From Gammaproteobacteria bacterium (lineage in GTDB: Bacteria; Pseudomonadota; Gammaproteobacteria; Steroidobacterales; Steroidobacteraceae): a DNA stretch of 45,383 bases. How positions within the stretch are numbered: position 1 is the stretch's first letter; each line of letters opens with the position of its first letter. Under the pieces are notes generated by a model. It was not told the origin of the DNA. It saw nothing but the letters and a program-made list of their open reading frames with translations, and made no database searches. Positions 8,706-33,020 of the stretch are shown one piece after another. The DNA is taken from contig JAFAKO010000108.1 of assembly GCA_019235245.1 (NCBI GenBank), positions 1 through 45,383 of the forward strand, written 5' to 3'. Position numbers and translations under genes: made by a program.

Positions 8706-9848
8706 TCACTCCGACGCAGGCGGAGCCGGGGCGAATGGCGCCGCCAGCGGCTCACCTATGAACAGCCCCTGACCAGGCATCAGCACGCTCTTCCAATACG
8801 CCTCGATCAGCGTTGCACCGCCGAGGTAGTGTGCGAGGAGCACGGGGACGTCCGGAAACTTGCCAGTGAGGGCGCATGGCTCGACCACCGTGCCATAGCT
8901 GCCGGTGGCTCCGGCTGCGAGCCACTGCAGGCTGCTCATCTGCGGGCTGTCGGTCAGCATGCCGCCGTAGGACGTGAGATGGTCTGCGACCGCGCCCGGC
9001 AGGAAGTGCACGCCGTCGATGCCCGCGACCTGCGCCGCGCCGGTGAAGTAAAACATGACGTCGGCCGGATCGACGGGAGCGCGCCCGGCGCTGACCCGAA
9101 AGTTCAACTCGTATTGCGCAACTCTTATGGCAAGCGGGTATTCGATCGAGCGCACGTTGCGTGGCCGGTCGTCGGTAATCACGAGGTACGCCGTGCCCTC
9201 CGGGGCGAGTCCGTCGGAACGGACACCGCGATCGATCAGTTCACGGGCCTGCGGCAGGTCCGAGGCGGCGATGCTCATGCTCGGACGCATGCCGAGCTCA
9301 TCGTACGGCCGCCTGACGGAGCTGTTGAAATAGGAACTGCGGCGGGTCGGCTTGCAGCCGGGAATGCAGTAATCCTCCTGATCCGCTCCGAACGTGAATG
9401 CCGAGGTGATCGACATGCAGCCGACGCGATACGGGCGCGCCCAGGTGAGAGCATACGCCTGCACCCGCGCCGGAAGCTGCCGCTCGACAGCCGCCCGCAA
9501 CGCCGTGAATTCCCCGGGCGGCAGCGCATCGCGACGGTAGTCGAAGCGCACGCGCGCGAGGTTGGACGCCGGGATGGCGCGGCGCTCGAGATAGTAGTCG
9601 CCGATCGCCACGCTGAGCGGATCCGACAGGTTCACGACCACCGCGATATCTGCCGCCTGCAGATGCTTTGTCCGCGTCACCGGCGCGAGCGGCGCGGGTG
9701 CGGTTCGCGTGGCCAGGTCGGCTTCCGCGAGCGCAGCCGTGCACGGCCACGACAGCAGCAAGGCCCAGCACGCCGTCGCCAGCCGCCCGCGAGCGGGGCT
9801 TGGGGTGCCGGAGCGACGTTTACCGCCATGAGCAGCCGCGCACCGCAT
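8706..9848 (-). CDS. TIGR03790-family secreted protein
   Basis: 380 residues from the ATG at 9848; upstream in-frame GTG codons overlap the previous gene. The start gives MRCAAAHGGKRR and then a signal peptide ending near ACWALLLSWPCTAALAEA. The mature part resembles the TIGR03790 family of unknown function: VVVNLSDPLSVAIGDYYLERRAIP, YALTWARPYRVGC, YLVITDDRP, and the end segment HYLGGATLIEAYWKSVLMPGQGLFIGEP-type (seen in pieces). Members often occur in genomes with PEP-CTERM/exosortase systems. The C-terminal half has a peptidase-like look (GATGSYGTVVEPC), but I cannot assign catalytic residues. It lies 14 bases after the WecA-like gene and 1 base before the BON lipoprotein gene, so it is in the same operon. 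Confidence 0.8.
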   Translation of the reverse strand: MRCAAAHGGKRRSGTPSPARGRLATACWALLLSWPCTAALAEADLATRTAPAPLAPVTRTKHLQAADIAVVVNLSDPLSVAIGDYYLERRAIPASNLARVRFDYRRDALPPGEFTALRAAVERQLPARVQAYALTWARPYRVGCMSITSAFTFGADQEDYCIPGCKPTRRSSYFNSSVRRPYDELGMRPSMSIAASDLPQARELIDRGVRSDGLAPEGTAYLVITDDRPRNVRSIEYPLAIRVAQYELNFRVSAGRAPVDPADVMFYFTGAAQVAGIDGVHFLPGAVADHLTSYGGMLTDSPQMSSLQWLAAGATGSYGTVVEPCALTGKFPDVPVLLAHYLGGATLIEAYWKSVLMPGQGLFIGEPLAAPFAPAPPASE

Positions 9849-9862
9849 GCGCTGATCCGCTT

Positions 9863-11485
9863 CTACAGCACTCCGCGCAGTGCGATGATCAACAGCGAGC
9901 CGAGCGTCGAGCACTGCAGCAGCCGGCGACAGGCGCTTCGCGGAGCGGTGCCGACGATGACCTCGCACGCGTAACTGAGCACGGTCGCGAGCAGCACCGC
10001 TTCCACCACAGCGCGCGAATTCACCTCGATGCCGCCAAACACCATCAGCGCCACGACGCCGCAGACGATCAGATAGTCGGTCGGCGTCGTGCCGAAGCGC
10101 TGCTCGGCACCGAAGCGGACGTACACCACGATCGCCAGCGCGAGTACCAGAGTGATCACGGCGATCAGCACCCGCGCGCCGGATGAGATCGCTTCCGGCG
10201 AGCTGATCAGCAGATAGGCCGGAAAGATGGCGGTGGCGTAGACCGCCAGTCGCAGCAGCGCCGGTCGCATCGCCTGCGGCCAGAGCAGCTGCGTGGCCGG
10301 CAGCACCGCGAGCACCGCTGCGGCGACCGCGAAGTCCGGCGGAACGCGTGCCATACCGAGCGCAGTGACCAGCATCACGATCGGCGTGAGGCCGGCGATC
10401 AGCAGCAGCGGGCCCTTGATGACCGCGCGACTGCGCTTGAGAAGATCAACGGCCTGCGTGACGCGCGACTCGACGCTGCGGATCGGCCAGTGGCGGCGCT
10501 CCGCCCTCGATAACGCCCAGAACAGGGGCACGATGCCGGCCGCGTATATCAAGGTAACCACCAGGTCGGACTCATAGCGCACCAGCACCGCGCTCACGAC
10601 GAAGCCGGCCTGGATGAGGTAGATGATGACGACCGTCTCGTAGTGATCGAAGCCCACCTGCAACAGCCGGTGGTGCACGTGGTTGCGCGTCGCCTTGAAC
10701 CAGTTCATGCCACCGTGGACCCGCTGGTATAGCACCGACAGGATGTCGGCCAGCGGCAACCCGAGAATGAGCAGCGGCAGCGCAGCGCTTACCGAGTGGT
10801 TGGCGATCTGCGTCAGATAGACGACCAGGAAACCCAGCGTGAAGCCCAGTACCTGGCTGCCGCTGTCGCCCATGAAGACATGCGCCGGATGGCTGTTGTA
10901 GCGCAGAAACCCGAAGATGCCGCCGATGGTCGCGAGCGAGCAGCCGAGCACCAGTGCGCTGCCGGACATGTAGCCGAGGATCGCGAGCGCGAGGAGGCTC
11001 AGGACCGATTCACCGCCGGCGAGACCGTCCAGGCCGTCGGAATGATTGATGGCGTTGATCACACCGATCAGGGCAAACATCGTGAAAGGCTTGCCGAGCT
11101 CCGCCGGCAGCGCGCCGTCGATGAATGGCACACGGGAAACCCACAGGTTGCCGTAGAAGACCACCGCGCCGGCGGCTGCGAGCTGCCCGATGAACTTCGG
11201 CCAGTGGCCGATGGTGCGAGCATCGTCCCAGATGCCGAAGACGAACAGGACCAGGCAACCGATGACGTACGATTGCACCAGCGGCTCGAGCTTGAATACC
11301 AGCAGCAGCGGCAGGAGGGTCCCGAGCGTGATGCCCCAGCCGCCGACGCGCGGAATGGGCACCGTATGCACCTTGCGCGGGTCGGGCATATCGACCAGGC
11401 CGAGGCGAGGTGCCACGCGGCGCATCAGCGGGATGATGAGCATGCTGACGGCTACTGCGAGGGTGAGATCGAAAAACGGATTCAC
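9863..11485 (-). CDS. WecA/MraY-like undecaprenyl-phosphate sugar-1-phosphate transferase with extended C-terminus
   Basis: 540 residues from a GTG at 11485 that follows the exosortase-EpsI stop by one base (TGACGTG). The frame runs open further upstream only because it overlaps that gene. It belongs to the polyprenyl-phosphate GlcNAc/HexNAc-1-P transferase family, which starts a lipid-linked repeat unit at the inner membrane. Seen: PRKVHTVPIPRVGGWGI, the FGIWDDARTIG cytoplasmic loop, NHSDGLDGLAGGES (Asp-rich Mg/substrate site), VFMGDSGSQVLGFTLGF and HHRLLQVG. About ten membrane segments make up the core (~340 residues). A further ~170 hydrophobic residues with five or six helices extend beyond typical WecA and have no assigned role. 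It is probably the priming transferase for this EPS. Confidence 0.88.
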   Translation of the reverse strand: MNPFFDLTLAVAVSMLIIPLMRRVAPRLGLVDMPDPRKVHTVPIPRVGGWGITLGTLLPLLLVFKLEPLVQSYVIGCLVLFVFGIWDDARTIGHWPKFIGQLAAAGAVVFYGNLWVSRVPFIDGALPAELGKPFTMFALIGVINAINHSDGLDGLAGGESVLSLLALAILGYMSGSALVLGCSLATIGGIFGFLRYNSHPAHVFMGDSGSQVLGFTLGFLVVYLTQIANHSVSAALPLLILGLPLADILSVLYQRVHGGMNWFKATRNHVHHRLLQVGFDHYETVVIIYLIQAGFVVSAVLVRYESDLVVTLIYAAGIVPLFWALSRAERRHWPIRSVESRVTQAVDLLKRSRAVIKGPLLLIAGLTPIVMLVTALGMARVPPDFAVAAAVLAVLPATQLLWPQAMRPALLRLAVYATAIFPAYLLISSPEAISSGARVLIAVITLVLALAIVVYVRFGAEQRFGTTPTDYLIVCGVVALMVFGGIEVNSRAVVEAVLLATVLSYACEVIVGTAPRSACRRLLQCSTLGSLLIIALRGVL

Positions 11486-11486
11486 G

Positions 11487-13085
11487 TCAGTCTGGCAGGT
11501 ACTTCGCGAGCGTGGGCAAAACGCTCGCGGTGAATTCGGCGAGCCGCGCATCGGCGGCCGACGCCAGCTCGTCCTGCGGCAGTGGCGTGACGAGCCGGAC
11601 GAGTGCCCCGTCGGTGCGGTTGCGCAGCAGCGCGTCCTCCAGCAGGTACCACTTGACGAGATACTCGCTGGTGATGCTCCGGCCGCGCTCCTGAAACCAG
11701 TAGTAGACGAGCTCCCGCTCGGAGCCATGCTGGACGATCGCGCGATTGACGCGCAGCTCCGTCCCCGCGGTACCGGCGCCGGGCAGCCGATGCTGCCCGA
11801 ACTCGAGAATGTCCCAACCGCCGCCCGGCAGGCATGAGCGCGGCGAATGCGCCGAGAGCCCATTGCGCTGCGAAGCGTAGTAGGCGACGTAGAAATTCAC
11901 TGGCGCCCGCGCCGGCGCATGTCCGGCCGGCAGGGCGCCGTCGCGCACGAAATCCACGAGCACGTAGTCATCGAGCCTGAGCGTATCGAGATATATCGGC
12001 TCCATCGTGAGGCGCCGGCCCCGCCAGCCCGCGACCTGCAAGGGGAAATCGGCGAAGTTTTCGCGGTGGGGTCGCACCTCGGGTCGTTGCGGCAGCGCAC
12101 GCGCCGGCAGCACCGCGGCCAGCAGCAACAGCAACACCACCACCGCCGGTTTGCCGAGCTCGCGGCTACGCAGCGTCGCGCCCGCGGCCGCCGGTGGCGC
12201 AGCTACGGGGGTAAGGACCTCGCGCAGCGAGCGCGCATCGCCCGTGAGACGTAGCAATGCCCAGCCCTCGGCGAGCAGCACCAGCAGGCACGCGATGAAC
12301 ACGACCCAGCCTTCGAACCAGTGGAGGAAGCCTTCCGCCTGCGCGATGCCGTACCTGTCCACCAGGATGCCGATCACGCCGACGCGCAGGCTGTTCATCA
12401 GGACCGTGATGGGGACGGTCGACAGAAACAGACACCAACGCATCCAGGCCTTGCCGCGGAACAGGTAGGCGATGATCACCCCGAGGGTCATCAACGGGAA
12501 CAAATAGCGCAGGCCGCTGCAGGCATCGGCGACCTGCAGCTTGTAGTTGCCGAGGTCGATGACGTTGCCTTCGAGAAAGACGCTCACGCCGGCCAGGCGC
12601 ATGAACGCCACGCCCATCTGTGAGGACAGCAGCTGCAGGCGCAGGGACAGGTTGTTGTAGAAGAACTGCGGGATGGGATTCATGAGGAACAGCAGCGCGA
12701 TGGGGACCAGCGCCACCTTGAACGCCTGCCAACCCATGACGCCGAGCACGCAGCCGGCGATGACGATCACCAGCGCGTACGCGTCCACCGTCGTGATCGA
12801 AGCCAGCGAGCCCAGAAAATAAATCGCCAGCCCGAGCAGCGCGAGTGCCACGCCGCTCCAGGAGGTCCGCCAGTTCAGTTGCGCGAAGCGCGCGCGCTGC
12901 CGCCACAGCAGGTACGCGCTGATGAGCGGGATCACGAAGCCATGACTGTACTCATCGCGCTGCCATTCGCCGAAGAGATAACCGAAGGTGCCCTGAAAAA
13001 CCAGCACCACGGCGGTGGCGGCCAGTGCCAGCACCGCAAGCTGCGGGGCGCGCAGCGCCAACCACGGGTTCCTGATAGCCGTCAT
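11487..13085 (-). CDS. Exosortase with fused EpsI domain (XrtD-like), catalytically intact
   Basis: 532 residues. The start at 13085 overlaps the stop of the upstream gene (ATGA). Residues ~1-290 are an eight-helix exosortase that cuts C-terminal sorting signals of exported proteins: EYSHGFVIPLISAYLL, then the catalytic Cys189 in ADACSGLRYLFP, Arg234 in MNSLRVG, and His255 in EGFLHWFEGW. All three members of the expected Cys-Arg-His set are present. Residues ~310-532 form an EpsI/DUF3485 domain: FADFPLQVAGWRGR, YYASQRNGLSAHSPRSCLPG and ELVYYWFQERGR. Exosortase-EpsI fusion is, as I recall, the pattern of the VPLPA-CTERM enzyme XrtD. No sorting-signal substrate was seen in the window, so targets must lie elsewhere. 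Confidence 0.92.
   Translation of the reverse strand: MTAIRNPWLALRAPQLAVLALAATAVVLVFQGTFGYLFGEWQRDEYSHGFVIPLISAYLLWRQRARFAQLNWRTSWSGVALALLGLAIYFLGSLASITTVDAYALVIVIAGCVLGVMGWQAFKVALVPIALLFLMNPIPQFFYNNLSLRLQLLSSQMGVAFMRLAGVSVFLEGNVIDLGNYKLQVADACSGLRYLFPLMTLGVIIAYLFRGKAWMRWCLFLSTVPITVLMNSLRVGVIGILVDRYGIAQAEGFLHWFEGWVVFIACLLVLLAEGWALLRLTGDARSLREVLTPVAAPPAAAGATLRSRELGKPAVVVLLLLLAAVLPARALPQRPEVRPHRENFADFPLQVAGWRGRRLTMEPIYLDTLRLDDYVLVDFVRDGALPAGHAPARAPVNFYVAYYASQRNGLSAHSPRSCLPGGGWDILEFGQHRLPGAGTAGTELRVNRAIVQHGSERELVYYWFQERGRSITSEYLVKWYLLEDALLRNRTDGALVRLVTPLPQDELASAADARLAEFTASVLPTLAKYLPD
12207..13070 (-). repeat. Exosortase-domain direct repeat, copy B (active)
   Basis: This copy encodes 288 residues of the exosortase domain. 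It matches copy A at 13151-13981 (277 residues), with roughly three quarters of residues identical by eye. Only two indels separate them: nine residues near the N-terminal end and the two-residue Cys-Ser site. This is a protein-level tandem duplication; the DNA also retains many identical runs. Confidence 0.88.
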
Positions 13086-15232
13086 ACGAACGGCACCTGG
13101 CGCAGCCCGGGCGCACGCGCCGCCTGAGGTACCGGCGACATGTGCAGCTCGGGAGTGAGCGCCTCGCGCAGCGAGCGGCCATCGCCCGTCAGGCGCAGCA
13201 GTGCCCAGGCCTCGGCGAGCAGTACCAGCAGCGAGACGATGAAAAAGGCCCACCCTTCGAACCACGGCAGTAAACCCTCTGCCTGGGCAATGCTGAACCG
13301 GTCGACGAGTATGCCGGTCACACCGACGCGCAAACTGTTCATCAGCAGCGTGATCGGGATGGTCGACACGAACAGGCACCAGCGCATCCACGGCCTGCCG
13401 CGGAACAGGTAGGCGATGATGACGCCGAGCGTCATCATCGGAAACAGGTAGCGCAAGCCGGCATCGGCCATCGGCAGCTTGTACTTACCCAGTTCTATCG
13501 CGTTACCATCGAGAAGCACGCTGACGCCGCAGAGGCGCATGAGCGCCACTCCGAGCTCAGATGACAGCAGCTGCAACTTGTACGACAGGCCGTCGTAGAA
13601 CCCCTGCGGCAGCGGGTTCATCAGAAAAAGCAGCGCGATGGGGACCAGCGCTACCTTGAACGCTTCCCAGCCCATGATTCCCAGGACGCATCCGGCAATG
13701 ACGATCACCAGCGCGTACCCATCGAGCGTCGTGACCGACACCAGCCGGCCGCCAACGTAGAGCATGAGCCCGAACAGCGCCAGCGCGGCGCCGCTCCAGG
13801 CGGGGCGCCAGCTCATGTCGGCGAACCGGGCACGCTGCCGCCACAACAGGTAGGCGCTGATCAGGGGAATGACGACGCCGTGGCTGTACTCACTGCGCTG
13901 CCATTGAGCGTAGAGATAGCCGAACGTCCCCTGGAACAACAGTATCACCGCGGTGGCCGCCAGGATCAGCAGCCAGGGGTTCTTGACGATCTGCCAGGCG
14001 AATGACTGCAGCTCCTCGAAGGCACGCTGCAGAACGGCATTGCGTTCCCAGTTGTCGAGGGCAAAAGCGCGCCCGGAGTCGCCGAGCTGCCGACGCAGGG
14101 TCGCATCGTTGAGCAGGCGGCGCAGGGCACCCGCCGTGGCTTGCGCATCTCCGGGTGGCACCACGATGCCGCCATGACGCGCGATGCGCGCGACGTCGGA
14201 GCCGGCGGCGGCGGTGGCGACCACGGGCCGTCCACTCGCCATGATCCCGGTGAGCTTGGACGGCATCACCAGGTCCTCGGCGGCGGCTCGCTGCGGCAGC
14301 AGGTGTACGTCCGCGAGGTTAAGTAACTCGTTGAGGCGCGCCAGCGGCTGCAGTGGGATGAATCTGACGTTGGCGAGATCCGCCGCGGCTGCCTCCAGAC
14401 GCGGCCGGGCCGCGCCGTCCCCGCACAACAGGAACAAGGCGTCCGGGGCGTCGAAGCGTCGTGCGACCTCGACGATGAGCTCCAGCCCCTGCTTCTCACC
14501 CATGTTTCCGGAATAAAGCAGCACACGCCGGCCGGCATCGATGCCGAGCTCGGCGCGCAACGCGTCGGTGTTCTCGAGCGGATGGATCAGCGACACATCG
14601 ACCCAGTTGGGAAACAGGAACGCGCGCCGCTGATCCACTCCTTTATCCAGCAGCCGCGCCAGCATGCGGTCGGAGATGTTGGACACCCGATCGAAGCTGC
14701 GCATCAGGGCGCGCTCGGCGGCGAGGATCGCGCGTTGCAGCGTGCCGGTAGGTATCAGGCCGAGCTCAAATGCCGCGTCGACCTCGAAGTCCTGCACGTG
14801 CAGCCACGCCTGTGCCCCACAGAGTTTCGCCGCCAACCACGCGCCGGGAGCGGCGCCGAGCGGCGGCTCGACCACGAACACGACGTGCGGGCGCCAGCTC
14901 ACGGCCTGCCACAACAACACCGGCAGACTCGAAAGCGCGAACGACAACAGGTGCAGAATACGCGTGATGCCGCGCGGCTTGCGTGGTACCCACAGTGGAC
15001 AGCGATAGACGGTGATCCCGCCGATGCTTTCCTTGCGGTAGCGCGCTGCCGAATAGCCATCGGCAACGCTCCAGGCGGGGTAGTACGGCGGCGCGGTGAC
15101 GACACGTACGGCGAGTTGCTTTTCGGTCGTCAGCCACTCCGTCATCTCGCTGACATATTTGCCTATGCCTGTGAGGTCTGGTGCATAATTCAGCGCAACG
15201 ACGAGCAATCGTCTCGAGTCGACCTTGTTCAT
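13082..15232 (-). CDS. WcaI-like glycosyltransferase fused to a degenerate exosortase (pseudo-exosortase)
   Basis: 716 residues from the ATG at 15232 (MNKVDSRRLLVV), with AGGTGGGG just upstream; a start at 15286 is possible. Residues ~8-400 are a GT-B glycosyltransferase of the WcaI type: LNYAPDLTGIGKYVSEMTEW, VVTAPPYYPAW, LLYSGNMGEKQGLE, VMPSKLTGIMASGRPVV. From Asn418 the chain runs without a stop into a full-length exosortase domain with about eight helices, EYSHGVVIPLISAYLL and MNSLRVG. The catalytic Cys is missing: the second copy reads ADACSGLR, this one ADAGLR (Ala591-Gly592; an exact 6-base loss). The catalytic His is Pro656 (EGLLPWFEGW). It is therefore probably inactive as a transpeptidase. 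It overlaps the active exosortase gene by 4 bases, implying translational coupling. Confidence 0.9.
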   Translation of the reverse strand: MNKVDSRRLLVVALNYAPDLTGIGKYVSEMTEWLTTEKQLAVRVVTAPPYYPAWSVADGYSAARYRKESIGGITVYRCPLWVPRKPRGITRILHLLSFALSSLPVLLWQAVSWRPHVVFVVEPPLGAAPGAWLAAKLCGAQAWLHVQDFEVDAAFELGLIPTGTLQRAILAAERALMRSFDRVSNISDRMLARLLDKGVDQRRAFLFPNWVDVSLIHPLENTDALRAELGIDAGRRVLLYSGNMGEKQGLELIVEVARRFDAPDALFLLCGDGAARPRLEAAAADLANVRFIPLQPLARLNELLNLADVHLLPQRAAAEDLVMPSKLTGIMASGRPVVATAAAGSDVARIARHGGIVVPPGDAQATAGALRRLLNDATLRRQLGDSGRAFALDNWERNAVLQRAFEELQSFAWQIVKNPWLLILAATAVILLFQGTFGYLYAQWQRSEYSHGVVIPLISAYLLWRQRARFADMSWRPAWSGAALALFGLMLYVGGRLVSVTTLDGYALVIVIAGCVLGIMGWEAFKVALVPIALLFLMNPLPQGFYDGLSYKLQLLSSELGVALMRLCGVSVLLDGNAIELGKYKLPMADAGLRYLFPMMTLGVIIAYLFRGRPWMRWCLFVSTIPITLLMNSLRVGVTGILVDRFSIAQAEGLLPWFEGWAFFIVSLLVLLAEAWALLRLTGDGRSLREALTPELHMSPVPQAARAPGLRQVPFV
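13151..13981 (-). repeat. Exosortase-domain direct repeat, copy A (degenerate, fused to glycosyltransferase)
   Basis: This copy encodes 277 residues, collinear with copy B at 12207-13070. The deletion of TGCAGC relative to copy B falls between 13459 and 13460, and the Pro codon replacing the catalytic His codon is at 13265-13267. The upstream boundary is the fusion junction with the glycosyltransferase domain. Confidence 0.88.
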
Positions 15233-15287
15233 CCCCACCTGCCCGAGCCGTGCGCGTTCTATCGAACCGCCACGATAGGACTGCAAT
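15233..15287. promoter_or_regulatory. Divergent intergenic region with CTATCG/CGATAG dyad
   Basis: Only 55 bases separate the two divergent EPS operons. It holds the inverted repeat CTATCG (15259-15264) / CGATAG (15273-15278) and the Shine-Dalgarno AGGA for the GTG at 15288. If the minus gene starts at 15286 instead, promoters must overlap coding sequence. The dyad is a candidate operator or hairpin. Confidence 0.3.
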
Positions 15288-16472
15288 GTGACAGTCAGAT
15301 ATCTTCACGTCATCCATTCGCTGAACCCCGAGCACGGCGGCCCGCCGCACGGGGTGAAGCAGCTGGCGTCAGCGGCAATGCGGCTGCAGCAGACCGTCGA
15401 GGTGGCGACCCTGGACAGCCCTGCGGCTTCGTGGCGCCAGGGGTGGCCGTGCCCGGTCCACTGCCTGGGTCCGGGGCTCCTCAAGTACGGCTATACGCCC
15501 CGATTCCCGCGCTGGCTGCGCCAGAATCTCGCGCGCTTCGACGCGGTCGTCATTCACGGCATCTGGCAGTACCACAGTCTGGCGACCTGGACGATCCTGC
15601 GGAAATCATCGGTCCCCTATTACCTCTTCACCAACGGGATGCTCGATCCCTGGTTCAAGCAGCGCTACCCGCTCAAGCATCTGAAGAAGCTGCTGTACTG
15701 GGCTGCCGTGGAGCATCGTGTGCTGCGCGATGCGCACGGTGTGCTGTTCACTTCCGAGGAGGAGAGGCTGCTCGCGCGGCAGAGCTTTTCTCTTTACCGT
15801 GCCAATGAAATCGTCGTCAACTTTGGCATAGCGGGCCTCGCCGGTGACGCGGGCGCGCAGCGCGCGCAGTTCCTGCAGCGCTTCCCGCACCTGCGTGGCA
15901 AACGCTGTTTTCTGTTCGTGAGCCGTCTCGACCCGAAGAAAGGCTGCGACCTGCTCATCGAAGCACTCGCTCCCCTGTTGCAGGCCGATCCGGCGCTGCA
16001 GCTGGTGATCGCCGGGCCGGATAAGTCCGGACAGCAGCAGCAACTCGCGAACCTCGCCGAGCAGCTCGGGGTCACGCAATCGATCACCTGGGCCGGTTGG
16101 CTGAGCGAGGAGCTGAAGGTCGGAGCTTTCCAGGCCGCCGAAGCCTTCGTGCTGCCCTCGCATCAGGAGAACTTCGGCATGGTGGTCGCAGAGGCACTCT
16201 CCGTTCCGCTGCCGGTGCTGATCTCCAACAAGGTCAACATCTGGCGCGAGATTGCCGCCGATAACGCCGGTCTGGTTGCCGAGGATACCGTCGAGGGTAC
16301 GCGGCACATGCTGCAGCGGTGGCTGGCGCTCAGTGAACAGGAACGCCAGGCGATGGGCCGCAACGCCGCCGACTGCTTTCGGCAGAGGTTCCACATCGAC
16401 ACCGGTGGTCGCAACATTCTGCAGCTGTTCGGGCAGCACGCCCGCAATCCGCACCCAAGCGCTGCCGCATGA
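15288..16472 (+). CDS. Glycosyltransferase family 4
   Basis: 394 residues from a GTG at 15288 with AGGA 7 bases upstream. It is a GT-B retaining glycosyltransferase: N-terminal YLHVIHSLNPEHGGPPHGV (acceptor side), LFVSRLDPKKGCDLLIEA (start of the donor-binding Rossmann half), and the donor motif E-x7-E in HQENFGMVVAEALSVPLPV. It probably adds one sugar to the lipid-linked EPS repeat on the cytoplasmic face; donor and acceptor cannot be inferred. The C-terminal segment has the usual W-L-alpha-helix crossing back. It overlaps the next gene, an acetyltransferase, by 4 bases (ATGA), and is divergent from the glycosyltransferase-pseudo-exosortase gene. Confidence 0.92.
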   Translation: MTVRYLHVIHSLNPEHGGPPHGVKQLASAAMRLQQTVEVATLDSPAASWRQGWPCPVHCLGPGLLKYGYTPRFPRWLRQNLARFDAVVIHGIWQYHSLATWTILRKSSVPYYLFTNGMLDPWFKQRYPLKHLKKLLYWAAVEHRVLRDAHGVLFTSEEERLLARQSFSLYRANEIVVNFGIAGLAGDAGAQRAQFLQRFPHLRGKRCFLFVSRLDPKKGCDLLIEALAPLLQADPALQLVIAGPDKSGQQQQLANLAEQLGVTQSITWAGWLSEELKVGAFQAAEAFVLPSHQENFGMVVAEALSVPLPVLISNKVNIWREIAADNAGLVAEDTVEGTRHMLQRWLALSEQERQAMGRNAADCFRQRFHIDTGGRNILQLFGQHARNPHPSAAA

Positions 16473-24208: not shown

Positions 24209-25189
24209 ATGATCATCGCGCGCAGTCCCTTACGCATTACTTTGGGCGGCGGAGGCACGGATCTGCCTTCCTACTATCGAAAGCATGAGGGCTTCCTCAT
24301 CGCTGCTGCCATCGACAAGTACGTCTATGTCACCGTCATGCGGCCCTTCTCCGAGGGCGTCTACCTGAAATACTCGCAGCTCGAGAGCGTGGCGCATGTG
24401 GCGGACGTCAAGCACCCGATCATCCGCGAGGCGCTGCTGCTGCAGAGCCTGGAGACGCCACAGGTGGAGATCACCGCGCTGGCGGACATTCCGGCGGGCA
24501 CCGGGCTCGGCTCCTCCGGGAGCTTCACGACCGCGCTGCTGAAGGCATTGTTCGCGCATCAGCGCCGCCTGCTGCTCCCCAAGGAGCTCGCCGAGCTCGC
24601 CTGCCATATCGAGATCGATCGGCTCGGCGAGCCCATCGGCAAGCAGGATCAGTACATTGCTGCCTACGGCGGCCTCACCTGCCTCACCTACCACACCGAT
24701 GACAGCGTCTCTGCCGAGCCGCTGCACATCTCGACGGATACGCTGTTCGAGCTCGAGGACAACCTGCTGCTGTTCTTCACCGGTTTCTCGCGCAGCGCCG
24801 GCGGCATTCTCAAGGAGCAGCACCTGCGCTCGCAGCAGAACGACGCGGAGATCCTCAACAACCTGCACTACGTCAAGGAGCTCGGACTGCGCAGCCGCAA
24901 AGCGCTCGAGTCCGGCGACGTGCGCGAATTCGGCCGCCTCATGCACGAGCACTGGGAGCACAAGAAGCGCCGCTCCGGCGCCATGAGCAACAGCCGCATC
25001 GACGAGTGGTACGAGCTCGGCAGGGAGAACGGCGCGGTAGGTGGCAAGCTGGTCGGCGCCGGCGGTGGCGGGTTCCTGATGTTCTACGCCGAGGATCGCG
25101 CGCGGCTGCGGCGCGCCATGGCGCGGCTCGGACTGGATGAGGTGCGCTTCCGGTTCGATTTCGAAGGAACCAAGATCGTCCTTTCATGA
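24209..25189 (+). CDS. hddA: D-glycero-alpha-D-manno-heptose 7-phosphate kinase
   Basis: 326 residues. GHMP-kinase fold: MIIARSPLRITLGGGGTDLPSYY opens it, seen in pieces, with the ATP-binding loop IPAGTGLGSSGSFTTALL and the C-terminal motif GGKLVGAGGGGFLMFY. HddA phosphorylates heptose-7-phosphate at C1 to give the 1,7-bisphosphate in the GDP-heptose route (alpha anomer), as distinct from the HldE route to ADP-heptose. It starts an operon with hddC, gmhA, gmhB and a transaldolase, all with 4-base overlaps except the last link to the GT4. A 13-base dyad lies upstream. Confidence 0.95.
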   Translation: MIIARSPLRITLGGGGTDLPSYYRKHEGFLIAAAIDKYVYVTVMRPFSEGVYLKYSQLESVAHVADVKHPIIREALLLQSLETPQVEITALADIPAGTGLGSSGSFTTALLKALFAHQRRLLLPKELAELACHIEIDRLGEPIGKQDQYIAAYGGLTCLTYHTDDSVSAEPLHISTDTLFELEDNLLLFFTGFSRSAGGILKEQHLRSQQNDAEILNNLHYVKELGLRSRKALESGDVREFGRLMHEHWEHKKRRSGAMSNSRIDEWYELGRENGAVGGKLVGAGGGGFLMFYAEDRARLRRAMARLGLDEVRFRFDFEGTKIVLS

Positions 25190-25896
25190 AGATCTTTCCC
25201 GTTGCCGTCTTGGCCGGCGGGCTGGCGACCCGCCTCGGGGCGCTCACCAGAGACCGTCCCAAGTCGCTGATCGAGGTGGCGGGACAGCCGTTCGTCGGCC
25301 ATCAGCTGCAGCTGCTGGCGCGGCACGGCGTCGAGCGGGTGGTCCTTTGCATCGGCCACTTCGGGGAGCTGGTGCGGGAGTACGTCGGTGACGGGCGCCG
25401 CTTCGGCGTGAGCGTCGAGTATGCGCCCGACGGTGCCGAGCCGCTCGGCACCGGCGGCGCGCTGCGCCAGGCGCTGCCGCACCTCGGCGAGCACTTTTTC
25501 GTCGTCTACGGTGATTCCTACCTGCGCGCGCCGATGCTTCCGGTGCAGGAGGCCTTCCTGGCGAGCGAATCGCCCGCGCTCATGTGTGTGCTGCGCAACC
25601 AGAACCGCTGGGACCGCAGCAACGTGGTATTCGCGGACGGCCGGATCGTCAGCTACTCGAAACTCGCCGCGGACCCCGCCATGCAGCACATCGACTACGG
25701 TTTGTCGATCCTCAGCGCCGACGCGTTGGCGAGCGCCCCGCAGCCGGTGCCGTTCGATCTCGCCGACCTGTTCGCCGCGCTCGCCCGTACCGGCCAACTG
25801 GCCGGGTACGAGGTATTCGCAAGGTTCTTTGAAGTCGGCTCGGTGCAGGGGATCAGCGCGCTGAACGCCTTTCTCACCTCAGGAGAAGTCTCATGA
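25186..25896 (+). CDS. hddC: D-glycero-alpha-D-manno-heptose 1-phosphate guanylyltransferase
   Basis: 236 residues; the start overlaps the hddA stop (ATGA). Nucleotidyltransferase fold: VAVLAGGLATRLGALTRDRPKSLIEVAGQPF is the diphosphate-binding N-terminus, seen in pieces, with FVVYGDSYL as the metal-binding region. It transfers GMP from GTP to heptose-1-phosphate to give GDP-D-glycero-alpha-D-manno-heptose. The kinase, isomerase and phosphatase partners on both sides make HddC the best call; mannose-1-phosphate guanylyltransferase is the main alternative. It ends with an ATGA overlap into the isomerase gene. Confidence 0.9.
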   Translation: MKIFPVAVLAGGLATRLGALTRDRPKSLIEVAGQPFVGHQLQLLARHGVERVVLCIGHFGELVREYVGDGRRFGVSVEYAPDGAEPLGTGGALRQALPHLGEHFFVVYGDSYLRAPMLPVQEAFLASESPALMCVLRNQNRWDRSNVVFADGRIVSYSKLAADPAMQHIDYGLSILSADALASAPQPVPFDLADLFAALARTGQLAGYEVFARFFEVGSVQGISALNAFLTSGEVS

Positions 25897-26492
25897 CCTA
25901 CACGCAGCAGCATCTGCGCGAGGCGAGCGAAATCCTCGATCGGCTCGATGTGAATGCGATCGAGCAGGTGGCGGCGCTGCTGGCGCGCATCAAGCGCGAC
26001 GGCGGCCGGCTGTTCTTCCTCGGCGTCGGCGGCAGCGCCGGCAACAGCTCGCACGCCGTCAACGATTTCCGCAAGATCGTCGGCATCGAGAGCTACGCGC
26101 CGACCGATAACGTCTCCGAGCTCACGGCACGCACCAACGACGAGGGCTGGGCCAGCGTGTTCGTGGAATGGCTGCGCGTGAGCCGGCTCGAGCGCCGCGA
26201 CTGTGTGTTCGTGTTCTCCGTCGGCGGCGGCAATCTCGAGAAGAACATCAGCCCCAACCTGGTCGAGGCGCTGAAGTTCGCCAAGAGCGTCGGGGCTGCG
26301 GTGAGCGGCGTCGTCGGCCGCGATGGCGGCTTCACCGCGCGGGTGGCCGACGCCTGCGTCATCGTTCCGACGGTCAATGCCGAGACGGTTACCCCGCACG
26401 CCGAAGCCTTCCAGGCCGTGATCTGGCACCTGCTGGTGTCGCACCCGAGCCTCAAGGCGCACCAGACGAAGTGGGAGTCTGCCACCCGGTGA
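25893..26492 (+). CDS. gmhA: Sedoheptulose-7-phosphate isomerase (SIS domain)
   Basis: 199 residues, typical for GmhA. SIS-domain sugar isomerase: LFFLGVGGSAGNSSHAVNDF, seen in pieces, SELTARTNDEGW, the second sugar-binding loop FSVGGGNLEKN and VGRDGGFTA. It converts sedoheptulose-7-phosphate to D-glycero-D-manno-heptose-7-phosphate, the HddA substrate. It has ATGA overlap at its start and GTGA overlap at its end, which shows tight coupling with hddC and gmhB. This locus-specific copy is slightly unlike the housekeeping GmhA (GGSAGN in place of GNGGSA). Confidence 0.9.
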   Translation: MTYTQQHLREASEILDRLDVNAIEQVAALLARIKRDGGRLFFLGVGGSAGNSSHAVNDFRKIVGIESYAPTDNVSELTARTNDEGWASVFVEWLRVSRLERRDCVFVFSVGGGNLEKNISPNLVEALKFAKSVGAAVSGVVGRDGGFTARVADACVIVPTVNAETVTPHAEAFQAVIWHLLVSHPSLKAHQTKWESATR

Positions 26493-27022
26493 GCGCCGCA
26501 GCCGCGTTTCTCGATCGCGACGGGGTCATCAATCGCGCGATTGTGCGCGCCGGCCGCCCGTTTCCGCCGGCCTCGGTCGCGGAGCTGGAGATACTGCCCG
26601 GCGTGCCGGCGGCGCTCGCGCGACTGCGGACCGCCGGGCTGCGGCTGATCGTGGTGTCGAACCAGCCGGATGTTGCGCGCGGCAGCACCACGAAGACCGC
26701 GGTGGATGAGATCAACGACGCACTGCTGCGCGCGCTGCCGCTGGATGCCATCCGCTGCTGCCTGCACGACAGCCACCATGATTGTGATTGCCGCAAGCCG
26801 CGTCCGGGGCTGCTGCTGCAGGCGGCCGCCGACTTCGACCTCGACCTCGCCGCGAGCTGGATGGTGGGCGATCGCTGGCGCGACGTCGAGGCCGGACGCG
26901 CCGCCGGCTGCCACACGATTTTCATCGACTACGCTTACAACGAGGCACAGCCCGGTCAGGTCGACCACCGGGTAAGTTCCCTGCCCGAGGCCGTGCCGAT
27001 CATTCTGGGAGAGCTCAAGTGA
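26489..27022 (+). CDS. gmhB: D-glycero-D-manno-heptose-1,7-bisphosphate 7-phosphatase
   Basis: 177 residues from a GTG at 26489 that overlaps the gmhA stop (GTGA); the upstream open frame overlaps gmhA and is not coding. HAD-superfamily histidinol-phosphatase-like enzyme: FLDRDGVINRAI (DxDGxxN nucleophile motif), VVSNQPDVARGS, the zinc-binding loop with CLHDSHHDCDCRKPRPG, and MVGDRWRDVEAGRAAG. GmhB removes the C7 phosphate between HddA and HddC. Its GTGA overlap with the transaldolase gene keeps the set in one operon. Confidence 0.92.
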   Translation: MSAAAAFLDRDGVINRAIVRAGRPFPPASVAELEILPGVPAALARLRTAGLRLIVVSNQPDVARGSTTKTAVDEINDALLRALPLDAIRCCLHDSHHDCDCRKPRPGLLLQAAADFDLDLAASWMVGDRWRDVEAGRAAGCHTIFIDYAYNEAQPGQVDHRVSSLPEAVPIILGELK

Positions 27023-27735
27023 AAATTCTCGAATCGCTCAAGGTGAAGGTGTTCGCGGACGGTGCCGATCGCGCCGGCATGCTGGAGATGGCCGCCAAAC
27101 CGCACATCGCCGGCCTCACCACCAATCCGACCCTGATGCGCAAGGCGGGTATCAGCGACTACCGGGCCTTCGCGCGCGATGTCCTGCGCGCCATTCCGGC
27201 CAAGCCAATCTCGTTCGAAGTGTTCTCCGACGACTTCGCCGAAATGGAACGCCAGGCACTCGAGATCGCGGACTGGGGCGATAACGTCTACGTCAAGATT
27301 CCCGTCACCAACACCCAGCGCGAGCCTACCTACAAGCTGGTGAATCGTCTCGCGCTGCGCAAAGTCAAGCTCAACGTGACGGCCCTGATGACGCTGGCGC
27401 AGGTGCGCGAGGTGGTCGCCGCCCTGAGTCCGGAGACACCGAGCTGTGTCTCGGTGTTCGCCGGACGCATCGCCGACACCGGCCGCGACCCGGTGCCGCT
27501 GATGGCGGCAGCGGTGGAAATGCTTAAGCCCAACCCGCGCGCAGAGCTGATCTGGGCGAGCCCGCGCGAGCTTCTCAACATCTTCCACGCCGATGCGATC
27601 GGCTGTCACATCATCACCGTGACCAACGATATCCTGAAGAAACTCGAGCTGGTAGGGAAGGATCTGGACGACTACTCGCTCGACACGGTTAAGATGTTCC
27701 GCAACGACGCCGTCGCTGCCGGCTTCACGCTCTGA
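27019..27735 (+). CDS. Transaldolase-family protein (fructose-6-phosphate aldolase/TalC type)
   Basis: 238 residues from a GTG at 27019 overlapping the gmhB stop (GTGA). TIM-barrel class I aldolase of the small transaldolase group: VFADGADRAGM, GLTTNPTLMRKAG, NVYVKIPVTN, the Schiff-base Lys probably in RKVKLNVTALMT, and VFAGRIADTGRDP. Transaldolases exchange a C3 unit between fructose-6-phosphate and erythrose-4-phosphate and yield sedoheptulose-7-phosphate, the GmhA substrate, which would explain its place in this operon. It has a near-normal length for short transaldolases (~215-240). The pathway role is inferred from context. Confidence 0.87.
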   Translation: MKILESLKVKVFADGADRAGMLEMAAKPHIAGLTTNPTLMRKAGISDYRAFARDVLRAIPAKPISFEVFSDDFAEMERQALEIADWGDNVYVKIPVTNTQREPTYKLVNRLALRKVKLNVTALMTLAQVREVVAALSPETPSCVSVFAGRIADTGRDPVPLMAAAVEMLKPNPRAELIWASPRELLNIFHADAIGCHIITVTNDILKKLELVGKDLDDYSLDTVKMFRNDAVAAGFTL

Positions 27736-28814: not shown

Positions 28815-28866
28815 GAGCTACCCGGCGCCGCGCTCGCCGGCCGGGGATTCCGCGTCCCGGTAGCTC
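28815..28866. terminator. Inverted repeat at convergent gene ends
   Basis: GAGCTACC (28815-28822) pairs with GGTAGCTC (28859-28866). Inside it CCCGGC and GCCGGG can also pair, giving a long, GC-rich stem. It begins just after the stop of the plus-strand GT4 and overlaps the last codons of the minus-strand gene. It could act as a bidirectional terminator, but no T tract follows. Confidence 0.35.
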
Positions 28867-29522
28867 CAGGTCGTGATGCAGGCGGCCGCGGCGAACTTGG
28901 TGATGTGGCTGATGCTGATGATGAACTGGAAGTGGCAGGGCAGCCGCGCCCCGTCACTGAGGGTGAGCAGAGGCTTGCCGCTCGGCGCGTGCGTCACGGC
29001 GAAGTCGCTCATGCGCATCTCCAGCAGCAGCGGGTGAGATTTCTTGGCCGCTTCCTTGGCGCAGAATATTCCGCACAGGTGGAGTCGTGCGTCCGGTCGC
29101 AGCAGCGCCGTGGCGATCTCGCCCGGCGAAAAATGGCTGCGATAGAACTCGTGCGACCGATAATCATTGGTCACTGGCAGCGCTTCGACGTCCTGGATGT
29201 CGAGCCCGAGGCCGATATCACCGCGCCAGGACAGTTGCTCCTGGCCGCGGGGCGGGTCCGCAGGAACGGCGCCCCCCTCCGGCGCCGACCGGACTTGTGG
29301 CCCAGCCCCGTTGGCGAGCATCGCGACCAGATCGCCGACCCGCATGTCGCCGCGCAACGGCTCGAGCACCCTGCCGCACGCACTCTCGAGGCGGGTGCGC
29401 AGCAGGCTCAGCCCGAGCGATGAGCTCACGCCGAGGCTCGCGAGCATGGCCGCGTCGCTGACGTCCGCGGCGGGTTTGCGCGCTATGCGCGACACCGCTG
29501 CCACTACCGCTGCACGATCCAC
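28818..29522 (-). CDS. Acyl carrier protein fused to AcpS-type phosphopantetheinyl transferase
   Basis: 234 residues from a GTG at 29522, with AGGAGGG about 10 bases upstream, just after the E2 stop; the frame stays open further upstream only as overlap with E2. Residues ~1-80 form an acyl carrier domain with the attachment Ser in LGVSSSLGL (canonical DSL reads SSL here). After a Pro/Gly-rich linker, residues ~110-234 form an AcpS-like holo-ACP synthase: GLGLDIQDVEAL, EFYRSHFSPGEI and FCAKEAAKKS. The protein could therefore load its own carrier domain with a phosphopantetheine arm from CoA. The E1-E2 genes upstream suggest the carrier takes an acyl group from them. Confidence 0.82.
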   Translation of the reverse strand: MDRAAVVAAVSRIARKPAADVSDAAMLASLGVSSSLGLSLLRTRLESACGRVLEPLRGDMRVGDLVAMLANGAGPQVRSAPEGGAVPADPPRGQEQLSWRGDIGLGLDIQDVEALPVTNDYRSHEFYRSHFSPGEIATALLRPDARLHLCGIFCAKEAAKKSHPLLLEMRMSDFAVTHAPSGKPLLTLSDGARLPCHFQFIISISHITKFAAAACITTWSYRDAESPAGERGAG

Positions 29523-29541
29523 GGCCCTGCCTCCCTCCTGA

Positions 29542-30942
29542 TCAATTCCAGCTGCCGAAACAACGATGGCACACGCCGCCGAGGCTGCCGTCCGGCCGGT
29601 AGAACGCCAGCAGGTAGCCGTCGCGCGCGAACCCGTCGTAGTAGGACGCGGCATCGACACCGCAGCGTTCGCAAAGGCCGGGAGCCCCGCCACCGTTGCG
29701 CACGAGTGCCCGCTGTTCGTTCGACGGCTGCGCAGCGCCGGCGCCCGCCGCAGCCACCACGTGCGCGGCCGTCGCATCGGACGGTGCATAACTCCGTAAG
29801 CGCGCGCGCAGCTCGCCGAGGAACAGTGCCATGTCGCGGCCGCTGGCGACGCGATGATCGAACGTAAGGTTGATCGTCATCGGGTGTCCCGGCAACGTCT
29901 CATCACCTCCGAGACCGATGATCGCCGACTGCCGGCCATTGATGAGCGGCTGAAATTGCAGAATGCCGAAGCCGGAGAGATCCGTGACCGTCAGCGTCGA
30001 GCCGAGCAATTCGTCCGCTTGCAGGCGGTTCTCGAGGTAGCGCGCGCCACAGTCGAGCGTGTGCTCGAACAGCTGCGCCGGGCTGAGGAGATCGGCGTTG
30101 CGAATCGTCACGACCTTGAGCCCCTTGCCCAGATCCATCGCAAGTCCCAGGTCTATGCGCCCATAGTAGTGGACCGCGCCGTCCTCGAAGAACGCGGTGA
30201 GCTGCGGCCAGCGCGGCAGCAGCCGCGAGATCTCGTAGAGCGCCAGCGGCAGCAGGTTGCCATCGAACAGGCGCTCGCGCCGCAGGCGAGCCCTGATGGG
30301 TGCCGAGTCGAAGCGCACCGAGAGGGTGCTGTTGATGTGGCCGCCGGCTCCGAGCGACAGTGCCGCTATCTCGGCCTCTTTTGCCCGCGAGACCCGCTGG
30401 TGATGCGAGTTGGCTGTCGTTGTGGGCGTGGCGCCGGTGATGGCCTCCGTGGCCGCAGGGTGCTGCGACACCGGACGCGCCGGGTCCACCAGCCCGAGGG
30501 CCAGCCTGACCCGCTGCGCGGTCACCAGGCCGGCTCCCTGAAAGGCATCCGCGGAAAGGGCATGGCGCTCGAGCAGCTCCGCCGCGGCCTTCGAGAACCG
30601 CGCCGACGCATAGACTCCGCGGCAATCGCTGCCATTTGCCGCGCCTGCCGCGGGCGCGGCCGCCGCGACGGCCGCGGGCTGTTGCGCCGGTGTACCGAGC
30701 TCTTCGGGCGAGGTGACGATCTTGCAGACGGGCACTCCGACGCGCACCGTGGCTTTGACGGGTAGCAGGGAGGTGACGTAGCCGGCACGCTCCGCCTCGA
30801 GCGTCATCGTGGTCTTGGAGGTCTCGAGCTCCGCGAGCTCCTGGCCCGCCTCCACATGTGCACCGTCAACGACGTGCCAGGCGACGATCTGCACCTCGTC
30901 GTCGTTGGTGTTGATCAATGGGGCGAGGACGGCGGTGATCAT
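29542..30942 (-). CDS. 2-oxo-acid dehydrogenase E2-like acyltransferase with C-terminal zinc-ribbon-like tail
   Basis: 466 residues; ATG at 30942 overlaps the E1 stop (ATGA). Residues 1-75 are a lipoyl domain with lipoyl-Lys43 in LETSKTTMT. After an Ala/Pro linker, residues ~110-150 form a peripheral-subunit-binding domain (YASARFSKAAAELLERH). Residues ~190-390 form the acyltransferase domain (INSTLSVRFDSAP; GKGLKVVTIRNAD; TVTDLSGFGILQFQP). Its active-site motif is DHRVASG, not the usual DHRxxDG, so the Asp is Ser (about residue 367). The last 43 residues carry CERC (424-427) and CHRC (458-461), a probable zinc ribbon not normal in E2. The chain ends SGS-W-N type (FGSWN). Acyl donor and acceptor are unknown. 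Confidence 0.87.
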   Translation of the reverse strand: MITAVLAPLINTNDDEVQIVAWHVVDGAHVEAGQELAELETSKTTMTLEAERAGYVTSLLPVKATVRVGVPVCKIVTSPEELGTPAQQPAAVAAAAPAAGAANGSDCRGVYASARFSKAAAELLERHALSADAFQGAGLVTAQRVRLALGLVDPARPVSQHPAATEAITGATPTTTANSHHQRVSRAKEAEIAALSLGAGGHINSTLSVRFDSAPIRARLRRERLFDGNLLPLALYEISRLLPRWPQLTAFFEDGAVHYYGRIDLGLAMDLGKGLKVVTIRNADLLSPAQLFEHTLDCGARYLENRLQADELLGSTLTVTDLSGFGILQFQPLINGRQSAIIGLGGDETLPGHPMTINLTFDHRVASGRDMALFLGELRARLRSYAPSDATAAHVVAAAGAGAAQPSNEQRALVRNGGGAPGLCERCGVDAASYYDGFARDGYLLAFYRPDGSLGGVCHRCFGSWN

Positions 30943-32903: not shown

Positions 32904-33020
32904 GTCATCGCCGCCTGGTGAACTGCCGCCCTTTATGGTTTGGTGCGCGCGGCCTTGGGAGAGTCGCGGTCGCAATCGGCGGCGGATTTTCTCACGGCTT
33001 CGGTTACAACCACGTGGCAG

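Follow-up and report, generated by a model that had tools for sequence, protein, structure and literature searches.

We describe a gene fusion in positions 1 to 45,383 of contig JAFAKO010000108.1 (assembly GCA_019235245.1), from a gammaproteobacterium of the family Steroidobacteraceae; this whole stretch of 45,383 nucleotides is referred to as the window. On its minus strand a glycosyltransferase (GT) of the WcaI type and an exosortase-like membrane domain, which we designate Xrt*, are encoded in a single frame that is open from 13082 to 15286 and, from an ATG at 15232, specifies 716 residues before a stop at 13082. The start codon of the next gene, xrtD, overlaps this stop, so that the fusion and the XrtD exosortase are probably made together. 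The features of the pair are:

13982-15232, minus strand: WcaI-type GT4 glycosyltransferase domain, residues 1-417 of the 716-residue fusion (NF007640, PF00534, PF13579)
13085-13981, minus strand: Xrt*, a Cys-less exosortase domain, residues 418-716, with eight hydrophobic segments (PF09721, TIGR02602, hydropathy scan, predicted local distance difference test score [pLDDT] 91.3)
13082-13085, minus strand: ATGA overlap of the fusion stop and the xrtD start (sequence)
11487-13085, minus strand: intact XrtD exosortase with a C-terminal EpsI domain and the catalytic Cys present (TIGR04152, 578.5 bits against a cut-off of 400; TIGR02914; PF09721; PF11984)

A glycosyltransferase and an exosortase domain in one chain

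The GT matches the WcaI family profile NF007640 over its whole length at 535.8 bits (cut-off 276), spanning residues 26-428 of P0001, the fusion protein in a numbering 18 higher than the ATG-based numbering used elsewhere here. It differs from that family in carrying a membrane exosortase domain, and it falls short of the colanic acid WcaI equivalog TIGR04007 (318.3 bits against a cut-off of 800.45). Its stretches EDLVMPSK and GNMGEKQG are as in its nearest relatives, with EDLV present in four of seven rows and GNMGEKQG in five of the seven. Xrt* passes the exosortase cut-offs of PF09721 (186.1 bits, cut-off 25.7; P0001 446-695) and TIGR02602 (156.5 bits, cut-off 105.55), and a simple hydropathy scan marks eight segments in it, roughly at the places of the eight in XrtD, together with two more in the GT. 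An earlier reading made from the sequence alone had proposed that the GT runs without a stop into a full eight-helix exosortase domain beginning at Asn418, and this is borne out by the single open 716-codon frame and both profile matches, by the residue itself at 13981, and by the eight hydropathy segments and the AlphaFold2 fold.

There is no in-frame ATG, GTG or TTG between codons 358 and 429 of the fusion, and codon 429 already lies within the first membrane helix of Xrt*; Xrt* is therefore unlikely to have a start of its own and one chain is the natural reading. The start-codon-free stretch between the domains speaks against two separate genes with an internal start in the window, and an assembly artefact arising from two near-identical copies is judged unlikely, the copies differing at 22% of nucleotides and the frame being clean. 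The glycosyltransferase-exosortase fusion is thus real.

Xrt* and the XrtD encoded next door are 76% identical in protein sequence and 78% identical in nucleotide sequence over 835 columns, and this copy-like relationship indicates where the fused domain came from. XrtD (TIGR04152) is the best-scoring exosortase subfamily for Xrt*, yet at 265.4 bits Xrt* does not reach the cut-off of 400. It also differs from XrtD in lacking the catalytic Cys and His and in being fused to a GT, and the EpsI domain is missing (P0001 has no TIGR02914 or PF11984 match).

Loss of catalytic residues

Haft et al. 2006 (PMC1569441) characterize the exosortase family by three motifs, CxG, NxxR and HxxxG, whose Cys, Arg and His are the putative catalytic residues. 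In Xrt* the corresponding positions are:

13457-13462, minus strand: missing catalytic Cys, a two-residue gap between A591 and G592; ADA--GLRYL in Xrt*, ADACSGLRYL in XrtD (alignments, invariant-position count)
13328-13339, minus strand: NxxR motif N632-R635 (NSLR), with the Arg kept (alignment)
13265-13267, minus strand: Pro656 in place of the third catalytic residue, the His of HxxxG; LPWFEG in Xrt*, LHWFEG in XrtD, with the Gly kept (alignment)

The sequence-only reading had called this a pseudo-exosortase, and the alignments, with the Cys absent and the His replaced by Pro, vindicate the prefix. Of 45 distinct XrtD-like domains, drawn from 171 loci after matches below 100 bits or shorter than 200 residues were dropped, all 42 unfused ones have the Cys (CSG in 25, a different middle residue in 17) and none of the three fused ones does; the count covers the loci collected up to that point and leaves out later ones. 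The two other fused copies, introduced below, read ADA-SGLALL (genome G121) and TEIGTGLNYL (G047) at this place, and G121 also has His for the NxxR Arg. Much else is retained. The EYSHG region is present in the window's Xrt*, which keeps 46 of the 53 positions that are near-invariant in 40 unfused domains, compared with 38 in G121 and 42 in G047; for live rows scored with themselves left out, the median kept is 99% and the minimum 93%.

Recurrence in other genomes

A search of the family (query P0003, a reverse-order fusion; E ≤ 1e-50, with the best five candidates per genome scored) found a GT and an exosortase in one frame in 3 of 217 genomes: that of the window, G121 and G047. In the latter two (records JAATEY010000013 and JAIBJM010000009) the order is reversed, the exosortase preceding the GT (Xrt*-GT) in frames of 763 and 764 codons from stop to stop. 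The reverse-order proteins, P0003 and P0004, pass the WcaI-family and exosortase cut-offs (NF007640, 535.2 and 529.7 bits), and the same hydropathy scan marks eight segments in the exosortase part of P0003 and seven in that of P0004. The G121 fusion has no in-frame start between its Xrt* and the first strand of its GT; the junction of the G047 fusion does contain in-frame starts, and its GT may be started separately.

Within the genus a single genome among 58 has the fusion, and two small families, searched in 2 and 22 genomes, showed none. Judged by frame lengths, no further fusions occur among the matches listed in samples of 396 order, 369 class and 398 phylum genomes, in which scoring was confined to the two best candidates of each genome and may have missed cases. 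In a scan of genome contigs the best 80 loci of 294 relatives include two one-frame fusions, both in reverse order and in the same two records. Across these searches the window's own order, GT-Xrt*, appears in no second genome; the sequence-only reading had suggested looking for the same two-domain order elsewhere, and what was found is the pairing in the opposite order in two family genomes. Matching plasmid records do not carry either arrangement at length, with none of 136 covering 80% of P0001 and none of 121 doing so for P0003.

Several apparent fusions were rejected. G056 (frame of 959) has a stop between the GT and xrtD, G903 (frame of 892) has a 509-residue exosortase frame, G017 (frame of 1035) has a 545-residue frame, and G082 has two genes. 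In G056 and G082 the GT lies directly upstream of xrtD, unfused, and the order in G082 (a divergent GT that by eye is HpsP-like, a WcaI GT, then xrtD) is that of the window but for the missing Xrt*. An HpsP-like GT is divergent to xrtD in G121 and G047 as well, with no WcaI GT between them, and Xrt*-GT is elsewhere, on another contig than xrtD in G121 and about 14 kb from it in G047. The G047 fusion (L149:1-6128, C115) is near flagellar-looking genes, as judged by eye, at the start of its contig.

Selection and predicted structure

No stop or frameshift interrupts the roughly 300 Xrt* codons. In a parsimony count over codons where XrtD and G188 agree, the changes on the window's Xrt* branch comprise 20 nonsynonymous and 27 synonymous ones where 75% nonsynonymous would be expected (p 2e-6), a ratio of nonsynonymous to synonymous rates (dN/dS) of about 0.25; that of the XrtD branch is about 0.05. 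A codon model likewise rejects omega = 1 for the window's Xrt* (twice the log-likelihood difference, 36.5), but because the synonymous distances are saturated (5.2 vs 1.2) we do not use its omega of 0.058 as a value and prefer the parsimony figure. For the reverse-order copies, dN/dS is 0.36 (p 0.002) in G121 and 0.41 (p 0.004) in G047 when the other dead copy serves as sister; against live copies only it is 0.68 (p 0.07, not significant) and 0.55 (p 0.008), respectively. By these tests the window's Xrt* is constrained, less so than its live sister XrtD, and is no decaying relic. The sequence-only reading had held that absence of the same order elsewhere, together with no selection on the exosortase part, would refute it; of these two halves only the first is what we see, the exosortase part being under purifying selection.

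AlphaFold2 predicts Xrt* with the pLDDT given above and a predicted template modelling score (pTM) of 0.84. Foldseek returned no match in the PDB at E ≤ 0.001, and a sequence search of the PDB found no exosortase at E ≤ 1. In mixed two-domain alignments the GT rows, judged by identities, are wholly or partly out of register in A1, A2 and A5 and in register in A4.

One fusion or two

In an exosortase tree of 45 rows the window's Xrt* is sister to the window's XrtD (100/99), and the Xrt* domains of G121 and G047 are sisters of one another (100/100) beside the XrtD of G047 (96/81); a single clade of the three Xrt* domains is rejected (approximately unbiased test, p-AU 0.0017). This tree and the opposite domain orders point to two origins of the fusion. 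In a 70-row GT tree the fused GTs form one clade with the unfused xrtD-adjacent GTs of G056 and G082 (100/99), and the unfused G056 GT is nested among the fused ones, with the reverse-order GTs, at 99/81, with the bootstrap not settled. In a 30-row GT tree a single clade of fused GTs is not rejected (p-AU 0.43), and given that value we have dropped the GT tree as proof of two origins. Alternatively, there may have been a single fusion followed by rearrangement and gene conversion, and the Xrt*-XrtD pair of the window could owe its look of recent sisters to gene conversion.

In the codon model Xrt* has a synonymous branch some fourfold longer than that of XrtD (5.2 vs 1.2), which is odd for copies within a single genome; possible causes are saturation, gene conversion and acquisition of the fused copy from a relative.

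Neighbouring genes and the VPLPA-CTERM system

Two neighbours of the fusion and xrtD bear on their setting:

9863-11480, minus strand: WecA/MraY-like transferase of sugar phosphate to undecaprenyl phosphate, start judged by eye (PF00953, 122.8 bits; TIGR02380, 155.2 bits, below its cut-off of 326)
15288-16472, plus strand: HpsP-like GT4 gene, divergent (NF038295, 179.3 bits, short of the cut-off of 550)

Downstream of xrtD the order is the WecA/MraY-like gene, a TIGR03790 protein and glmS, and an HpsP-like gene also stands beside xrtD in G121 and G047 (NF038295, 132.3 and 164.5 bits). The TIGR03790 family protein (8706-9968, minus strand; 210 bits, cut-off 67) adjoins the WecA-like gene in the exosortase cluster. 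Farther along, at 24209-27735 on the plus strand, the polysaccharide locus has consecutive GHMP kinase, nucleotidyl transferase, SIS-domain and transaldolase-like genes (Pfam), which may together form a sugar-nucleotide pathway starting with a precursor of the sedoheptulose type. A two-part E1 dehydrogenase/transketolase-like protein (30939-32975, minus strand) and a phosphopantetheinyl transferase (28818-29789, minus strand) are both odd among the glycan genes of the locus.

Proteins with the VPLPA-CTERM sorting signal (TIGR03370) match over the cut-off in 10 of 13 chosen genomes, in none of the three members of the genus where XrtD went undetected, and in none of 14 control genomes. In G121 (C158) a VPLPA-CTERM gene (L151:6461-7183, 40 bits to TIGR03370) shares its strand with Xrt*-GT and lies directly upstream of it, and from its position its product is a candidate dedicated substrate.

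Interpretation

We propose that a copy of xrtD without its EpsI domain was joined in frame to a WcaI-type GT gene, of the kind found directly upstream of xrtD in two relatives. The copy would then have lost proteolysis (the Cys gone, the His changed to Pro) with its frame kept and, by prediction, its fold. The dead Xrt* would act as a membrane module by which the GT, a cytoplasmic enzyme, stays at or close to the site of XrtD/VPLPA-CTERM sorting. It would probably bind XrtD, as a partner of kindred domain, or else the tail or lipid on which XrtD works, and an undecaprenyl-linked sugar from the WecA-like enzyme and the GT would then be made where XrtD joins proteins to their acceptor. We give a probability of roughly 0.4 to this reading, in which a non-cutting Xrt* holds the GT at the XrtD/VPLPA-CTERM site so that the lipid-linked sugar is made there. 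The single frame, the catalytic loss, the constraint on Xrt*, the intact XrtD beside it and the reverse-order pairing in two genomes are observed; the membrane module, its contact with XrtD or its ligands and the sugar supply are what we infer from them.

Recurrence of the pairing in two more genomes in the opposite order makes a functional link between GT and exosortase plausible, and with eight helices both ends of the exosortase domain would be cytoplasmic, so that a GT can sit at either one. The acceptor of exosortase substrates is called an unidentified compound in those parts of PMC7468200 that deal with it, where attachment to a compound resembling a modified sugar is the subject of speculation; a GT held at the sorting site fits with this. 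The constrained single frame, the predicted fold, the Cys present in all 42 unfused domains and in no fused one, the xrtD start overlapping the fusion stop and the VPLPA-CTERM gene beside the G121 fusion also speak for the proposal. The coupling of a sugar enzyme to a sorting fold put forward by the sequence-only reading holds as a physical and recurrent fusion, and its further idea, that sugar assembly is tethered to the sorting site, fits the topology expected from the helix number, a plain anchor being nearly as likely. Direct glycosylation of sorted proteins, its other idea, is less likely: by the time an exosortase acts, its CTERM substrate has its folded part in the periplasm, and GT4 enzymes use cytoplasmic sugar nucleotides.

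Several observations weigh against the proposal. The window's genome has one weak VPLPA-CTERM match only (26.0 bits, cut-off 25.35), though its completeness is just 84%. Constraint on Xrt* is relaxed about fivefold relative to XrtD, and 7 of the 53 near-invariant positions are changed in the window's copy, 15 in that of G121 and 11 in that of G047. Of the 43 alignment rows behind the Xrt* model 40 are live relatives, which would tend to bias it toward the family fold, and the prediction for the whole fusion (pLDDT 78.6, pTM 0.56) does not place the two domains confidently relative to one another. Adjacent genes fuse easily, so that the recurrence may partly reflect gene order, and the smaller GT tree, as noted, is compatible with a single clade of fused GTs.

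The most serious competitor is that Xrt* is a generic membrane anchor for the GT, its exosortase ancestry being an accident of gene order with no bearing on sorting. We regard it as nearly as likely as the scaffold. The GT adjoins xrtD unfused in G056 and G082, which would make this neighbour the membrane domain most readily acquired; the lost catalytic residues and the relaxed constraint agree with an anchor; and the even helix number, from the hydropathy scan and general knowledge, would leave the GT cytoplasmic in either order. It fits less well that most close GT relatives are without an exosortase domain (it is present in 2 of the best 80 loci of 294 relatives; other kinds of anchor were not looked for) and that a domain of about 265 codons keeping 46 of 53 near-invariant positions exceeds the needs of an anchor.

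It is unlikely, in our estimate, that Xrt* is a recent, decaying and non-functional passenger, a tandem xrtD duplicate fused to a GT that alone matters. Such an account gains from the rarity of the fusion (1 of 58 genus genomes), from the lost Cys and His, from protein change faster than that of XrtD (0.35 vs 0.064 changes per column) and from the weaker constraint on the reverse-order copies when only live copies are compared, but it was already weakened by the selection tests: some 300 codons are intact with a dN/dS of about 0.25, and the reverse fusions retain Xrt* in two genera at 57% identity, with the lower ratios of about 0.36 and 0.41 when each dead copy is set against the other.

Inactive kin of proteases offer a general parallel for a regulator or decoy, by which Xrt* might bind VPLPA-CTERM tails uncut, holding or metering substrates for XrtD with the GT as a passenger. 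The retained EYSHG region and NxxR Arg of the window's copy, and the VPLPA-CTERM gene adjoining Xrt*-GT in G121, would suit such a role, which we nonetheless consider quite improbable: it leaves unexplained why the partner is each time the same type of GT, and the G121 copy has lost the NxxR Arg and 15 of the 53 near-invariant positions. That Xrt* is still catalytic through another nucleophile, as the predicted overall fold and the Arg kept in the window's copy might allow, is highly improbable, the Cys and His of the proposed Cys-Arg-His set (as outlined in PMC1569441) both being absent in the window and the other two copies having lost the Cys and, in one, the Arg.

A broader form of the scaffold reading, that Cys-less exosortase domains were recruited at least twice, in both orders, as a receptor-like module bringing a GT to the XrtD complex to make its lipid-linked sugar acceptor, is doubtful as a whole.

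Relation to known systems and significance

Fusion of an exosortase domain to a second processing domain has a precedent in the EpsH-CAAX protease fusions, from which Haft et al. 2006 (PMC1569441) drew a Rosetta Stone argument; there the second domain is a protease, and section 6 of that paper mentions neither a lost Cys nor a GT fusion. The Type IX secretion sortase (PMC7468200) also joins a protein with a C-terminal signal to a sugar-bearing acceptor and is a model for coupling sorting with glycan synthesis, but it is unrelated, and the passages on it mention no fusion of a GT to a sorting enzyme. Among the matches listed in a literature search of titles and abstract openings there is no pseudo-exosortase and no GT-exosortase fusion, though a mention in Haft 2012 is possible.

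The occurrence of exosortase genes among polysaccharide genes is a matter of neighbourhood only, and a single chain with a GT and an exosortase fold, in both orders, is a physical link. The loss of the Cys in every fused copy separates a binding or scaffolding role from proteolysis, and the question of the acceptor becomes testable through the sugar target of the GT and contact between Xrt* and XrtD. If the broader form of the scaffold reading is true, it would name a class of pseudo-exosortases and would indicate a glycolipid as the long-sought exosortase acceptor.

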